Shown here: positions 1,298 to 10,435 of the stretch, in pieces
How the letters are laid out: every line of letters starts with the position of its first letter
Numbering within the stretch: the stretch's first letter is position 1
Assembly (NCBI GenBank): GCA_003155795.1
Contig: PMEM01000019.1
Location: 184,013-226,276, forward strand
From: Gemmatimonadota bacterium
Lineage (GTDB): Bacteria; Gemmatimonadota; Gemmatimonadetes; Gemmatimonadales; Gemmatimonadaceae
Reading direction: 5' to 3'
Length of the DNA: 42,264 bases
Position numbers and translations under genes: made by a program
Notes under the pieces: model-generated
Told to the model about the DNA's origin: nothing
The model's input: only the letters and a program-made list of their open reading frames with translations
Databases searched by the model: none

Positions 1298-2326
1298 TCA
1301 GTGCAGTAGCGCGACGAGCAATGCAACTGCTGCGAGCGCGAGCGCTACGCCCGCCACCATCAGCGTGGTTCGCATTGCGGCCGCCCAACGCGACTGCGCT
1401 GACTCGAATGCCGCCATTACGCGTTTCTCAGCGGTATCCTCTGGTGTAGACTCGCCATCGAACAACGATTGCCGCATGACACTCTTCGCAAGCAGCACCT
1501 CATGCATCGCTTCCTCGAAATGCGCCTGGTGAATTGCACGAGGCACTTCCGTTGACGGCTCGGATGCCGCCATGGCAGCCGCTTTCAGTACGGCATTCTT
1601 GATCTCCCCGCCGCTTGCGTCAAACAGATCTGCAAGCGCGTGGAAATTGACGTCTGCAGCGAGTGGCGTCTTGTCCGGATGAATCTGCACTCGCCAGATC
1701 TGCTCACGTTCGACAGCGCTCGGTCGCTCAAATAATACATGAGTCCGTATGCGACGTTCGAAAGCAGGATCGAAGTTCGCGGCGAGATTGGTTGCAAATA
1801 TCACCACTCCGTTGAAACTCTCCAGCTCGCGCAGCAACACATTTACCGTCGTGTTCGATTCACGTTGAATGGGCTGCAAGGTTTGCGTCGAACGACGGGC
1901 CGCGATCGCATCTGCTTCATCAAAGAAGAGCACAGCGCCCTGTTCATCAGCGACCCGAAATACCGCCGCAACGTTCTTTGGCGTTTCGCCAGCCCACATC
2001 GATTCCATTTCGGAGTACCGCACGACGAGCAGGCGACGCCCGAGCGCCTGCGCAATGGCCTCGGCGCAGATCGTTTTGCCAGTACCCGGCGGACCAGCAA
2101 AGTTGAACGCGAGACCGAGTCCGGTCGCATGACGCTCGCCCAAACCCCACTGACGGAAGATCAAGTCGTGGTTCCGAACCTGCGCGAGTGCCTGTTCCAG
2201 AGTCTGCCGAGTTTTTGGCGGCAGGATGACATCGGCGAAAGTACGCACCGGTGCAACGACATCGACGGTGCCTCGCTTGGAGGCGCCGGGAACCAGACCA
2301 AAAAACTCCAGCAGCGGTGTGGCCAC
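1298..2326 (-). CDS. AAA ATPase with C-terminal transmembrane anchor
   Basis: 342 residues. One AAA module: Walker A GPPGTGKT (about residues 78-85), Walker B VLFFDEADAI, and an arginine-finger-like FERRIRTHVLF after sensor 1 (VVIFATN). The last 25 residues are a hydrophobic helix (TLMVAGVALALAAVALLVALLH), so the ATPase is probably tail-anchored in the inner membrane and could unfold or extract membrane-associated substrates. GTG at 2326 has GGAG five bases upstream. The frame stays open and protein-like for about 30 more codons upstream, but has no ATG, GTG or TTG. The upstream neighbour is the DUF1059 mini-gene, 90 bases away. The superfamily is certain; the substrate is unknown. FtsH-like protease function is excluded because no HExxH domain follows. 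Confidence 0.88.
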   Translation of the reverse strand: MATPLLEFFGLVPGASKRGTVDVVAPVRTFADVILPPKTRQTLEQALAQVRNHDLIFRQWGLGERHATGLGLAFNFAGPPGTGKTICAEAIAQALGRRLLVVRYSEMESMWAGETPKNVAAVFRVADEQGAVLFFDEADAIAARRSTQTLQPIQRESNTTVNVLLRELESFNGVVIFATNLAANFDPAFERRIRTHVLFERPSAVEREQIWRVQIHPDKTPLAADVNFHALADLFDASGGEIKNAVLKAAAMAASEPSTEVPRAIHQAHFEEAMHEVLLAKSVMRQSLFDGESTPEDTAEKRVMAAFESAQSRWAAAMRTTLMVAGVALALAAVALLVALLH

Positions 2327-2838: not shown

Positions 2839-3894
2839 TCATCGCCGTATCCTGTCCATCCATTGGGTGACGTACGATGGCAGGAACATGTTGTCCGAGA
2901 TTCCAGCGATCTCCTCGGCTTCCTTCCAGCGCGCTTCGAGCACCGCCAGCTCGCCTTCGAGTGCGCGACGCTCATCGTCTTCGTGCGTCACCATCTCCAG
3001 AGCTAGCCGCGCTTCAATGGGAATCTTCGAGAGTTTCCCCTGAGACAGTGCGTTCCAACTGATTTTGGTGGCCATGGATGCAGCAGTATCCAGGAGTCGC
3101 GTCGCGTTGCCGGCCTCTTCCACCAGTTTGACAGCAGCCTGAACGTCCCGCTTGCTGCCACCGCTGCCGTTGACCGTGGGGAGGATCGCAGCAAGAGCGG
3201 GAAGTGCGTTGCGTGAATCCAGCAGTACTGTGTTGTGCATGGCACGTCGCGATTTGTACGCCCACCAATTGTAGGCGCCTTTTGACCGATGCTTTCTGTA
3301 TGCGAGCGAGAGTTGCCAATCGGAACCGCCGGTCTGAACAATTCTGGCCTTTGGAAGGAGTCCCCGAGTTACCGGAACGATTCCTTCGGGCGTTGGCACT
3401 CTTGCGATTACACGACGATTGCGCATCGCTGCGATCGCCTGCACCGGCATATTGATAAAGGATGCACCGCCGCCAGCGAACAGACCAAGCGCCGCATAGC
3501 CCGAAACGATTGCGCCGACCGCGACCGCGCCGCCCGCAGCGATCATGTAGTAACGCCGGCGGCGTCTGCCGAACTGATCTCCGTAACGCCACGCTGCCAT
3601 TTCCGGCCTCTGTGGGCTTCCCACGCGCACGAGCTCGAGGCCCTCGCTCACACGCGCCAGGCCTATGTGATCCGTAGACATGCGGAGCGACGTGCCGCGA
3701 AAGAGTCGCTCGCACTCCTCAATCGCCTCCCAGCGTTCTTCCAGAGGCGTGAGATTCCAGCGCTCGCACGACCGACAGATGACCCACAACCTGCCCTTCT
3801 CCTCATCGAACGCGAGGCGGCGTCCGACGGGAAAATGTTCGATTACCTCGTTCGCGCCGAGGTCGTTGTGACAGAAGAGGCAGGTTGAGTACAC
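2839..3894 (-). CDS. Zinc-ribbon membrane protein of unknown family, copy B
   Basis: 351 residues. The N-terminus has CxxC at residues 5-8 and CxxC at about 40-43 (CLFC...CRSC), a likely zinc ribbon in a block (1-112) almost identical to copy A. A Gly/Ala-rich hydrophobic stretch at about 118-145 could be one or two membrane segments. The middle (about 150-280) has diverged from copy A. The C-terminal 60 residues are again highly similar: a charged helix LEARLALEM.THE.DERRAL.GELAVLEARWKEAEEIA, likely coiled coil, ending near W345. GTG at 3894 is the start because TGTxCxxC follows in register with copy A. The 109-base gap before it carries a short remnant of the regulator's 3' end. I do not recognise the family. 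Confidence 0.72.
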   Translation of the reverse strand: MYSTCLFCHNDLGANEVIEHFPVGRRLAFDEEKGRLWVICRSCERWNLTPLEERWEAIEECERLFRGTSLRMSTDHIGLARVSEGLELVRVGSPQRPEMAAWRYGDQFGRRRRRYYMIAAGGAVAVGAIVSGYAALGLFAGGGASFINMPVQAIAAMRNRRVIARVPTPEGIVPVTRGLLPKARIVQTGGSDWQLSLAYRKHRSKGAYNWWAYKSRRAMHNTVLLDSRNALPALAAILPTVNGSGGSKRDVQAAVKLVEEAGNATRLLDTAASMATKISWNALSQGKLSKIPIEARLALEMVTHEDDERRALEGELAVLEARWKEAEEIAGISDNMFLPSYVTQWMDRIRR

Positions 3895-4003
3895 GGGCTA
3901 GTTGGGCTTGGTCATCGTGTTAAGCCGTGGCTGATGCTTCTGTTGGTACACCGTCGCAGGCAGACCGATCTGGCGCCACCGCAGACAGGTCGGCGCGCCA
4001 TTC

Positions 4004-5071
4004 TTAACGTAGCCTTTGCATCCAATCGGTGACAGACGCCGGGACGAACATGTTGTCCGAAATCGCCGCGATTTCTTCGGCTTCCTTCCAGCGCGCCTCG
4101 AGCACAGCGAGCTCACCATCGAGGGCGCGACGCTCGTCTTCCTCATGCGTCGCCATTTCGAGAGCGAGCCGGGCCTCCAGCGGCAGCGTCGATAGGCGTC
4201 CGCGCGTCTTCTTGTCCCAGCCAGGCTTTATCGCCAACGACGCGGCGGCGTTGAGCAGTTTGGTCGCGTCTCCCGCTTGCCCAACGAGCTCGACTGCAGC
4301 TTGGACCTTGCTTCTGGAGCCACCGCGGCCATTGATAACCGGAAGGAGCGCAGCCAGCGCTGCCGACGCGTCAATCGGATCGAGACGTGTGTTGCGGTTA
4401 CGTCCCAAAAAGCGGGGCGGCGACATCGACCAGCGATCCGGCGACGATTTGCCGCTTGGGACTGTGGGCCTGTGATCGATTGAGAGCTGCCATGATGATG
4501 CCGAAGAGCCGACGATCTTCACTTGGGGAACGACGGAGCGTGGTATGTCGACAACGCCGTTGGGAGTGCGCACTCGCGCAACGATATGGCGCTTGTAAGC
4601 CGCACTCCAAGCCTGGGCCGCGACCTGAAGCAGTAGTGGCCCTCCTGCAAGTCCGAGCGCGCCAAGCGCCGCGTAACCCGCGAAGCCGGCGCCACCGACC
4701 AGAACGGCGCCGCCCGCAGCCATGTAATAGCGCACGCGTCTTTTCCCGAACTGGTCTCCATACCTCCACGCTGCCATTTCGGGACGCTTCGGGTTTCCAA
4801 TTCGTACAAGCTCCAACCCCTCGTGAACGCGTGCGAGTCCGATGTGTTCCGTGGACAGACGCAACGTGGTGCTGCGAAAAAGTCGTTCACACTCCTCGAT
4901 CGCCTCCCATCGCTCTTCGAGCGGCGTGAGATTCCAGCGCTCGCACGAGCGACAGATGACCCACAACCTGCCCTTCTCCGCATCAAACGCGAGTCGGCGA
5001 CCGACCGGGAAGTGTTCAATGACCGCATTCGCGCCGAGGGCACTATGACAGAAGAGACACGCTGAGTACAA
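4004..5071 (-). CDS. Zinc-ribbon membrane protein of unknown family, copy A
   Basis: 355 residues and same layout as copy B: CxxC at 5-8, IEHFPVGRRLAFD, CxxC at 40-43, then RWNLTPLEERWEAIEECERLF and AWRYGDQFG before a Gly/Ala-rich hydrophobic segment (about 117-150). A variable hydrophilic centre follows, then a conserved charged coiled-coil-like C-terminus. It starts with TTG at 5071, three bases after the winged-helix stop, and no Shine-Dalgarno site is visible, so it probably depends on translational coupling to the regulator. Cytoplasmic zinc ribbon with a membrane anchor is inference. Paralogy with copy B is plain from sequence. No known function recognised. Confidence 0.75.
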   Translation of the reverse strand: MYSACLFCHSALGANAVIEHFPVGRRLAFDAEKGRLWVICRSCERWNLTPLEERWEAIEECERLFRSTTLRLSTEHIGLARVHEGLELVRIGNPKRPEMAAWRYGDQFGKRRVRYYMAAGGAVLVGGAGFAGYAALGALGLAGGPLLLQVAAQAWSAAYKRHIVARVRTPNGVVDIPRSVVPQVKIVGSSASSWQLSIDHRPTVPSGKSSPDRWSMSPPRFLGRNRNTRLDPIDASAALAALLPVINGRGGSRSKVQAAVELVGQAGDATKLLNAAASLAIKPGWDKKTRGRLSTLPLEARLALEMATHEEDERRALDGELAVLEARWKEAEEIAAISDNMFVPASVTDWMQRLR

Positions 5072-5074
5072 GGG

Positions 5075-5377
5075 CTAGCTCGGCTTAGCTAGTGTCCCAC
5101 GCTTCGCTTCAGCCTTGAAAAGTTTCACGATTCGTTTTGCGAGCGGGTGATTCGAGGAAATTCGGTACAGGACATTTCGTCCGTCGCCGACGCGCTCGAC
5201 TACACCTTCCTTCTCGAGGCGAATGAGCGCCTCCCGAACAGCAGGGCGACTAACGTTCGTTTCGCGCGCGATGCGCGGCGGCGCGTGCTCTCGGCCCGGC
5301 GTGAGCATACGGAGCACGCGAACAGTCGCCTGCGTGCCGAGGATCTGGTCCAGTGGATGAATCTTTGGTTTGACCAC
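5075..5377 (-). CDS. Winged helix-turn-helix regulator of the nucleotidyltransferase-linked type
   Basis: 100 residues, GTG start at 5377, two bases after the stop of the DUF4412-like gene. Helix-turn-helix PPRIARETNVSRPAVREALIRLEKEGVVERV is followed by a wing (GDGRNVLYRISSN) and a HPLAKRIVKLFKAE helix. The HPL..xI helix after the wing is typical of winged helices found N-terminal to MNT-type nucleotidyltransferases, but here the protein stops before any nucleotidyltransferase domain. It is followed three bases later by the zinc-ribbon gene, so it may regulate that locus. An ArsR- or MarR-like assignment is possible; no metal-binding Cys motif is present. Confidence 0.8.
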   Translation of the reverse strand: MVKPKIHPLDQILGTQATVRVLRMLTPGREHAPPRIARETNVSRPAVREALIRLEKEGVVERVGDGRNVLYRISSNHPLAKRIVKLFKAEAKRGTLAKPS

Positions 5378-5379
5378 GT

Positions 5380-6216
5380 CTAATGCGATAGACCAATGGT
5401 TTGCTTGGCATAATCTGCCGGGAGATCGAAGACCGACGCGTCCACGTCAGCAACGCCAAGTTGCGTAACCTCTGTAGTCAGCATGACTCTGGTCCTTTTC
5501 TCGTTGTCCACCGTAATGGTAAAGTCGGACACTGTGCGTAACGGCGCGCCTCCCTGGTACAGATTCGCGCGTGCAGCCATGTATTGCTGATCGTATGCGG
5601 GGCCGTACATTCCCATTCCAGCTGCCATTGCTGGCGCGTAGGACAGGAATGGGTTGATGAAATTCTTCAGATCAGGCGCGTAATACAGATCGTTGACTAT
5701 CGAGTCTCGCTCCGTGTTGGTTGGCGCGTTGATCGTCTTCACGTCCACAAGCCGATAGTGTGTCGTAGAATGCCCGAACAAGGTCGGCCCGGCGCCCATG
5801 GCTACGGCGTCAACATGCACGTCGGTAGCGTGTCTGTCGACAAAGCCGTCGGCGCCAGTGGTCAATTTCGTGAAATGCTGGGCCAGGAGCTGCATCGGCA
5901 TTTCCAGGTACCGCTTTGCCTTCGGAGCCACCAGGACAACACGATTCCCGCCATTGAGCACGAGGAAGTACCCGCCACGTATGCCCGCCAGCTGCCCGTT
6001 GAGCGAGTCGAAGTCGATGCGCGTCTGGTCGCCGAGCATAGATGCGTGCCCGCGCATGGTGATGCCGTCGGTCGTCTTGCCATCTGAATCAGTCACGTGA
6101 ACTTGCATGACGAACGTGTATGTAATACCCGATCCCTGAGCAGCGATGGAGGGCGGTGCGGTGGTCGCAACGAATGCAATCGACGCAGCAATGGCGAGGA
6201 ACTGGCGGCCAGTCAT
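5380..6216 (-). CDS. Secreted DUF4412-like protein
   Basis: 278 residues. Signal peptide MTGRQFLAIAASIAFVATTAPPSIAAQ, then a beta-rich protein: YTFVMQVHVTDSDGKT, MRGHASMLGDQTRIDF, GGYFLVLNGGNRVVLVAPKAKRYLEM, and a distal TVSDFTITVDNEKRTRVMLTTEV. The pattern of a lipoprotein-carrier-like sheet with 'ILV..k.ky..M' resembles DUF4412 proteins. The ATG at 6216 is preceded by GGGAGGGAG and overlaps the previous stop by 4 bases (ATGA), so translation is coupled to the amidohydrolase-like mini-gene. Periplasmic location is likely; function unknown. Confidence 0.7.
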   Translation of the reverse strand: MTGRQFLAIAASIAFVATTAPPSIAAQGSGITYTFVMQVHVTDSDGKTTDGITMRGHASMLGDQTRIDFDSLNGQLAGIRGGYFLVLNGGNRVVLVAPKAKRYLEMPMQLLAQHFTKLTTGADGFVDRHATDVHVDAVAMGAGPTLFGHSTTHYRLVDVKTINAPTNTERDSIVNDLYYAPDLKNFINPFLSYAPAMAAGMGMYGPAYDQQYMAARANLYQGGAPLRTVSDFTITVDNEKRTRVMLTTEVTQLGVADVDASVFDLPADYAKQTIGLSH

Positions 6217-6494
6217 GCTCCCTCCCGAGACGGATGAATTGTCGGGCGACCGTCGTGTGCGAGGGTCACCGTCACGCAGCTTCCCACGACCATTCCCGAA
6301 GGAAGCGTCAGGAACTGTCCACCGGCATCAATGACCCGAGTCTCTGTGCCGGCCATCTTTAGAATCTCCGCCGCCGAGCCCACAACTGCAAGCTTGCCGT
6401 CTCTGAGCCCAAGCGCGGTAGCCCATGGACGCGCTGGATCTCCTGTTTTCAGTCGAGTGTTCGTGACAATCAGCGACAGGTACTCGGCGGTCAC
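6213..6494 (-). CDS. Orphan domain resembling the N-terminus of an amidohydrolase
   Basis: 93 residues. Residues 6-55 (LIVTNTRLKTGDPARPWATALGLRDGKLAVVGSAAEIL, then ETRVIDAGGQF) read like the first beta-strands of YtcJ-type amidohydrolases, but the metal-binding barrel that should follow is missing. The C-terminal part (LPSGMVVGSCVTVTLAHDG) makes further strands. It overlaps TerC by 4 bases at its GTG start and the DUF4412-like gene by 4 bases at its stop, so it is embedded and translated, not obviously a dead remnant. It could be a stand-alone version of the amidohydrolase composite beta-sandwich. Function unknown. Confidence 0.6.
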   Translation of the reverse strand: MTAEYLSLIVTNTRLKTGDPARPWATALGLRDGKLAVVGSAAEILKMAGTETRVIDAGGQFLTLPSGMVVGSCVTVTLAHDGRPTIHPSREGA

Positions 6495-10350: not shown

Positions 10351-10435
10351 CTGGATCCCGACCTTGGGCGGGACGACTGCTGGATCCCGACCTTCGGCGG
10401 GATGACTGCTGGATCCCGACCGTCGGCGGGATGAC
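10351..10435. repeat. Three tandem 29-bp palindromic repeats
   Basis: Copies start at 10351, 10380 and 10409, period 29. The middle copy's core, ATCCCGACCTTCGGCGGGAT, is the same as in the copies at 19-45 and 2733-2759; the outer copies differ at a few bases (TTGGGCGGGACG; CGTCGGCGGG). No spacers separate them, so this is a tandem palindrome array and not a CRISPR. It fills most of the 170-base gap between bioD and the next gene, where no other feature is visible. Confidence 0.9.

Follow-up and report, generated by a model that had tools for sequence, protein, structure and literature searches.

A widespread and unnamed family of zinc-ribbon-like, predicted membrane proteins with conserved ends and a divergent centre in Gemmatimonadota

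A 42,264-nucleotide stretch of a Gemmatimonadota genome (contig PMEM01000019.1 of assembly GCA_003155795.1, positions 184,013 to 226,276; hereafter the window) carries a short winged helix-turn-helix (wHTH) protein followed by two paralogous proteins, ZnR-A and ZnR-B (A and B below), each of which joins an N-terminus with two CxxC pairs to a hydrophobic segment, a central region and a charged C-terminal helix. The locus raises the question of why two adjacent genes should be so alike at both ends and so unlike between them, and of whether the wHTH protein belongs to the same system. A sequence-only reading of the stretch had placed the three genes at 2839..5377, a location which holds, with all of them on the minus strand; it regarded them as one module, the ends of the paralogues facing a shared partner and the centre a changing ligand or partner. 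The three genes and the parts of the two paralogues are as follows.

5377-5075, minus strand: wHTH protein, 100 aa, GTG start
5071-4004, minus strand: paralogue A (ZnR-A) of the zinc-ribbon membrane family, 355 aa, TTG start
3894-2839, minus strand: paralogue B (ZnR-B) of the same family, 351 aa, GTG start
4736..5071, minus strand: ZnR-A residues 1-112, N-terminal module with C5xxC8 and C40xxC43, beta-rich, then the start of a helix with WRYG...RRR
4586..4735, minus strand: ZnR-A residues 113-162, hydrophobic segment rich in Gly/Ala, predicted to form a membrane hairpin
4181..4585, minus strand: ZnR-A residues 163-297, divergent centre, predicted for the most part with confidence as two beta hairpins and then helices, with a low-confidence loop at about 201-220
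4007..4180, minus strand: ZnR-A residues 298-355, conserved acidic C-terminal helix, with E305, E310, E313, G319, W328 and D339 invariant in 79 family members
3559..3894, minus strand: ZnR-B residues 1-112, N-terminal module, sharing 87% identity with that of A

The stop of the wHTH gene lies 3 nt from ZnR-A, which is in turn separated from ZnR-B by 109 nt, and these two are the only copies of the family in the window's own genome.

Conserved ends and a divergent centre

Comparison of A and B bears out the picture of two paralogues of about 350 residues with near-identical ends and a diverged centre. Overall they share 215 of 355 residues (61%; BLASTP E 4e-146), with identity reaching 86.6% over the 112 codons of residues 1-112 and 81.0% over the 58 codons of residues 298-355, as against 42.9% over 49 codons in residues 113-162 and 43.5% over 131 codons in residues 163-297. 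The variable part had been put at 100-120 residues; its divergence stands, whereas its length has to be extended to about 185 residues (113-297), since of all parts the hydrophobic segment is the least conserved. Further, nonsynonymous divergence (dN) is 0.088 and 0.108 at the two ends and 0.53-0.55 in the middle, while synonymous divergence (dS) exceeds 1 in all regions. Since dS is this high while dN at the ends is only 0.09-0.11, the ends are kept alike by selection, and recent duplication or gene conversion is ruled out as the cause of their likeness. The single ZnR copy found in sister genomes lies closer to B (71-72% identity) than to A (62-66%). A quick tree with 79 rows has A as a long branch (0.46) without a close orthologue and B in a supported clade of nine rows.

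Inspection of a multiple sequence alignment of 79 family members shows that the layout is a general one. The cysteines C5, C8, C40 and C43, forming the two CxxC pairs, are invariant in all 79, and mean pairwise identity is 73.3% in residues 1-112, 21.4% in the hydrophobic segment, 26.2% in the centre and 58.0% in residues 298-355. Additionally, residues 1-114 show no length variation whatsoever, and the centre keeps a length of 130.7 residues (standard deviation 8.7). A descriptive class with a comparable appearance, the segmentally variable genes, is characterized by a variable stretch of more than 70 residues amid well-conserved regions (PMC387263; Zheng, Roberts and Kasif 2004). The ZnR proteins share this feature, with 185 variable residues (113-297) at 21-26% identity set between regions at 73% and 58%, though such examples of the class as methyltransferases, gyrase and sensor kinases have an architecture other than that of the ZnR family.

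The earlier reading knew of no named family with this layout, and the scans of A and B agree: neither has a match at E 1 in Pfam, NCBIfam or PADLOC, and the best in PHROGs is at 0.09. A Pfam scan of the 79 members touched 44 families, all weakly; among the matches listed, DUF3040 appears in nine members (best E 0.03), C19orf12 in five (best 0.016) and one single-member match lies at 0.005. A full-text literature search, with subscription papers and preprints outside its scope, brought up no title, and no opening of an abstract, that concerns such a family. In a sample of the phylum, a family match is present in 286 of 395 Gemmatimonadota genomes (105 of 138 genera), often as several strongly diverged copies and in one genome as at least 11 matches; within the window's taxonomic family it is present in 129 of 179 genomes. 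At least 7998 database clusters match in a protein search (7998 of the 8000 candidates scored), and of the 80 relatives kept from 123 in a genome scan, 78 carry Gemmatimonadota names and two are labelled 'uncultured bacterium'. One listed family protein is named Acidobacteriaceae (P0106, partial). The family is thus widespread, real and without a name in the libraries searched. A mobile element as its carrier was rejected, as tblastn of A returned no matches in 72,556 plasmid and 50,697 phage records and no viral contig matched its patterns.

Genomic arrangement was analysed in 81 loci with 114 family genes, chosen by similarity to A, some of the loci being cut by contig ends. These genes fall into 85 clusters, of which 64 are single, 16 double and three triple, with one cluster each of four and five genes; the multiple clusters provide 29 adjacent pairs, all on the same strand, with no family neighbour on the opposite strand. 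In 15 of the 29 pairs the gap is between -1 and 9 nt. Mean identity across the pairs, taken region by region from the N-terminus, is 77, 22, 37 and 71%, and the pattern of conserved ends and variable centre recurs in 28 of the 29, one copy of the remaining pair being without its N-terminus. The largest array (locus L068, 6001-11451) has five family genes, with gaps of 3-5 nt among the last four; the N-terminus of its last copy is 88% like that of the adjoining one, but the two centres only 19%. With this array as the example, a swapping of centres as cassettes was considered, and is not shown by the data: across 222 sequences the identity of the centre declines gradually with that of the ends, and for 142 of them the nearest relative by the ends lies within 5% of the nearest by the centre.

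Predicted fold and possible role of the ends

AlphaFold predicts the full-length protein with a predicted local distance difference test score (pLDDT) of 88.5 and a predicted template modelling score of 0.81, placing one helix at 96-135 and a second at 144-161. When residues 1-112 are predicted alone, only a short helix (97-100) is left and residues 100-112 fall below a pLDDT of 50, a loss which fits packing of that stretch on the rest of the chain. A fold search with the AlphaFold model gave no significant match, and a sequence search of PDB chains none that can be trusted, the best E values (0.049 for A, 0.031 for the profile) both lying outside the N-terminus. The N-terminus on its own shows a weak fold resemblance, with 10 of 16 rows being entries for eIF5 or a 48S initiation complex, for RNase P and for RNA polymerase II. 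We take the matched chains to be the C4 zinc ribbons of eIF5 (in the 48S entries too), of archaeal RNase P and of RNA polymerase II; the ZnR family differs from such ribbons in the joined membrane segment, the divergent centre and the acidic helix. The four cysteines could bind zinc.

An alternative assignment of the N-terminus to the HNH nucleases (PF14279, PF01844) was not accepted. Comparison of residues 1-70 with 28 HNH stretches in hhalign, made without a control profile, gave 27% probability and an E value of 7e-4 with the cysteines in register (31 stretches had been chosen, three of which were dropped as their loci did not have full flanks). However, Pfam has no match for A or B at E 1, and the two proteins are absent among the matches of PF14279 and PF01844 in their own genome. 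In HNH nucleases a conserved histidine is catalytic, and column 20, the nearest candidate for it, holds histidine in 43 of 79 members. A comparison with TcaA was considered and dropped, as a literature search gave nothing useful on it.

The simplest account of end conservation is that the two ends constitute one structural unit. The reading which we favour, tentatively and as something short of probable, is that A and B are membrane-anchored proteins facing the cytoplasm, in which the two conserved ends together make up a common assembly module that carries divergent centres in mixed complexes. The predicted Gly/Ala hairpin would supply the anchor, with the stretch 96-112 and the acidic tail helix packing together below the zinc-ribbon-like head, at the membrane; the hairpin and the centre would then be free to diverge inside a fixed fold. 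Closely spaced copies might be made together and hence could co-assemble into mixed complexes with different centres. The conserved ends make such an assembly module, shared between paralogues, testable by an interaction assay.

Two other readings are serious rivals to that of a shared assembly module. The first, which we consider unlikely, is that these are single-pass signalling proteins resembling membrane anti-sigma factors, with the zinc module inside and the variable centre and acidic tail outside, so that the centre would sense the envelope and the zinc module would signal to a common cytoplasmic partner. Several features of the alignment are consistent with this topology: the 19-residue window of highest hydrophobicity, which begins at about 113-141, reaches a Kyte-Doolittle value of at least 1.6 in 76 of the 79 members and a second strong hydrophobic segment is present in only one; about 6.6 arginines or lysines lie within residues 96-114, just ahead of the segment; and cysteine is almost absent from the centre and the tail, occurring once in the centre of 10 members and in the tail of three. 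However, the tail (net charge -7.0) is also strongly conserved, at 58% mean identity, unlike a free-ranging sensor, and the model gives a second helix after the first. Moreover, the flanks of the hydrophobic stretch have net charges of +4.6 and +2.2, and the far side is therefore positive too, while none of the four neighbour clusters with a Pfam name is a sigma factor, most other neighbours being without annotation.

The second, to which we give a similarly low likelihood, is that these are plain structural or scaffold proteins, in which the centre varies through light constraint only and extra copies provide dosage or redundancy. Centre identity falls gradually with end identity (222 sequences; Spearman 0.49), and the centre of L117/L118, the only close pair compared, has a dN of 0.029 against a dS of 0.22, indicating purifying selection; further, no neighbour cluster extends beyond 11 of 81 loci. 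The gradual decay, the low dN of this pair and the held length of the centre also weaken the earlier proposal of a changing ligand there. On the other hand, plain scaffolding does not readily account for a centre which is mostly folded with confidence and nearly fixed in length, or for the retention of tandem copies while their centres diverge to 18-61% identity.

Gemmatimonadota are common in soil, and a trait this widespread in the phylum is likely to be tied to its cell biology. A bolder extension of the shared-module reading, which we regard as unlikely, is that the family represents phylum-defining mix-and-match membrane proteins: hetero-oligomers of many paralogues with a common docking module built from both ends and a differing membrane segment and centre, which might serve as a combinatorial set of membrane sensors or scaffolds for which model bacteria have no counterpart. 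A recognition or sensing role for the centre is conjectural.

Neighbouring genes and the upstream winged helix

The remaining genes around the two paralogues are the following.

1298..2326, minus strand: AAA ATPase with a hydrophobic C-terminal tail, starting 512 nt past ZnR-B
2764-2417, between the ZnR-B and AAA genes: DUF1059 gene (Pfam match at E 4e-21)
6216-5380, upstream of the wHTH gene: 278-aa protein
6494-6213, upstream of the 278-aa protein: 93-aa protein
7438-6491, upstream of the 93-aa protein: TerC protein (Pfam TerC)

Across the 81 loci, 161 neighbours form 95 clusters, of which 66 have a single member. The most widespread one is present at 11 loci (aminotransferase class V, on the other strand), followed by a cytidylate kinase-like cluster (10), a major facilitator superfamily cluster (9) and a cyclase cluster (6), each of these four being named from one member. 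Neighbour genes were called by a simple frame picker, and some might be spurious. A conserved partner gene was accordingly rejected, the recurring neighbours reading as a few syntenic positions rather than as partners. At three loci (L026, L068, L077) the ZnR genes have behind them, 33-124 nt away and in the same orientation, a gene for a small protein that begins with MPTYE; of the two scanned, that of L026 is a Zn_ribbon_8 protein and that of L077 has no match.

That the AAA ATPase and a membrane-bound zinc-ribbon client or adaptor form a working unit in this genus appears improbable. The AAA gene does lie downstream of ZnR in the four genomes of the genus examined, where it is 90% conserved, and its sequence ends in the hydrophobic tail; in sister genomes the distance is 6-69 nt, against the 512 nt of the window, where the DUF1059 gene and two repeats come between. 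At E 1e-60, however, the AAA is present in only eight of 99 family genomes, and in the four of these outside the genus no ZnR gene was found in the 8.8-11 kb stretches around it. The ATPase, itself no member of the ZnR family, resembles the IetA-type AAA ATPases (116 bits against PADLOC IetA). In IetAS defence a partner protease adjoins the AAA. This assignment was rejected for the neighbouring AAA, which scores 111.2 bits against NCBIfam IteA, where the curated cut-off is 510.

Least probable is the module first proposed, in which the wHTH regulates or binds both zinc-ribbon proteins as one conserved system: the spacing of 3 nt here, repeated between a wHTH-amidohydrolase frame and ZnR in sister genomes, speaks for it, but a wHTH of this type is found within 1 kb upstream in only three of 85 clusters, all in the window's genus, against a phylum-wide ZnR family, in three sister genomes the wHTH forms the first part of an amidohydrolase frame, and its end in the window suggests truncation. 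The sequence-only reading had thus seen the right layout, but the wHTH is an ordinary neighbour: in the loci examined outside the genus no homologue keeps it beside a zinc-ribbon gene, a search in which the window's wHTH was the only query, so that an unrelated regulator could precede other clusters. The conserved module was accordingly rejected outside the genus. Because the pairing is local, the finding is the ZnR family and not the wHTH-ZnR pair, and for the upstream wHTH the role of a separate regulator, or of a remnant, is more probable than that of a constant partner.

Related winged helices were found in 15 of the 59 family genomes searched. Eleven relatives were examined (241-348 aa; nine from other genera and two from the window's own genome), with winged helices 35-44% identical to the window's over 85-92 residues. 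The claim that this HTH is of a type preceding a nucleotidyltransferase holds in part: three of the 11 (L126, L134, L144) carry the domain by Pfam, whereas the other eight have only HTH or unrelated weak matches. These eight (L127-L133, L143; 328-348 aa) have a long C-terminal part which, by eye, appears to keep a worn nucleotidyltransferase motif and might possibly represent dead nucleotidyltransferases. Unlike the fusions, the window's protein stops after the winged helix at 100 aa, as had been noted; its Pfam matches are of HTH type, and a nucleotidyltransferase is absent from the 25 of 33 listed.

The sister genomes carry an amidohydrolase where the fusions have the nucleotidyltransferase. 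In three of them the winged helix leads into an in-frame amidohydrolase (L117 7337-9283, L118 7578-9524, L119 617-2500), with the single ZnR gene 3 nt further on and the AAA gene behind that; Amidohydro_3 was identified in L117 and L118, which were scanned, and in L119 by 84% identity. The amidohydrolase part opens, by eye, with a segment resembling a signal peptide, and the product could be a regulator tethered to the membrane, unless the frame is a composite one in which a second start lies inside. In the window no amidohydrolase is present at this place, the nearest full-length match in the genome being 45% identical and on another contig. The last codons of the wHTH gene and the leader of B are identical at 14 of 18 nt, a resemblance which suggests that an older wHTH reading frame was cut short when copy A arrived together with its leader. 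The 93-aa protein (6213-6494), which in the genus lies between TerC and the frame of the wHTH, resembles only the first part of an amidohydrolase (49% over 53 residues).

As for non-coding features, no Rfam match reached the gathering score within the window, and scans for promoters and terminators gave no clear excess above shuffles. A palindromic repeat similar to repetitive extragenic palindromic (REP) elements occurs at 21-45, 2735-2759, 2784-2808 and 10353-10435, with six copies against none in 100 shuffles. Genome-wide there are 93 copies at ≤3 mismatches, the reversed control giving 0, and two of the window's copies are those between ZnR-B and the AAA gene.
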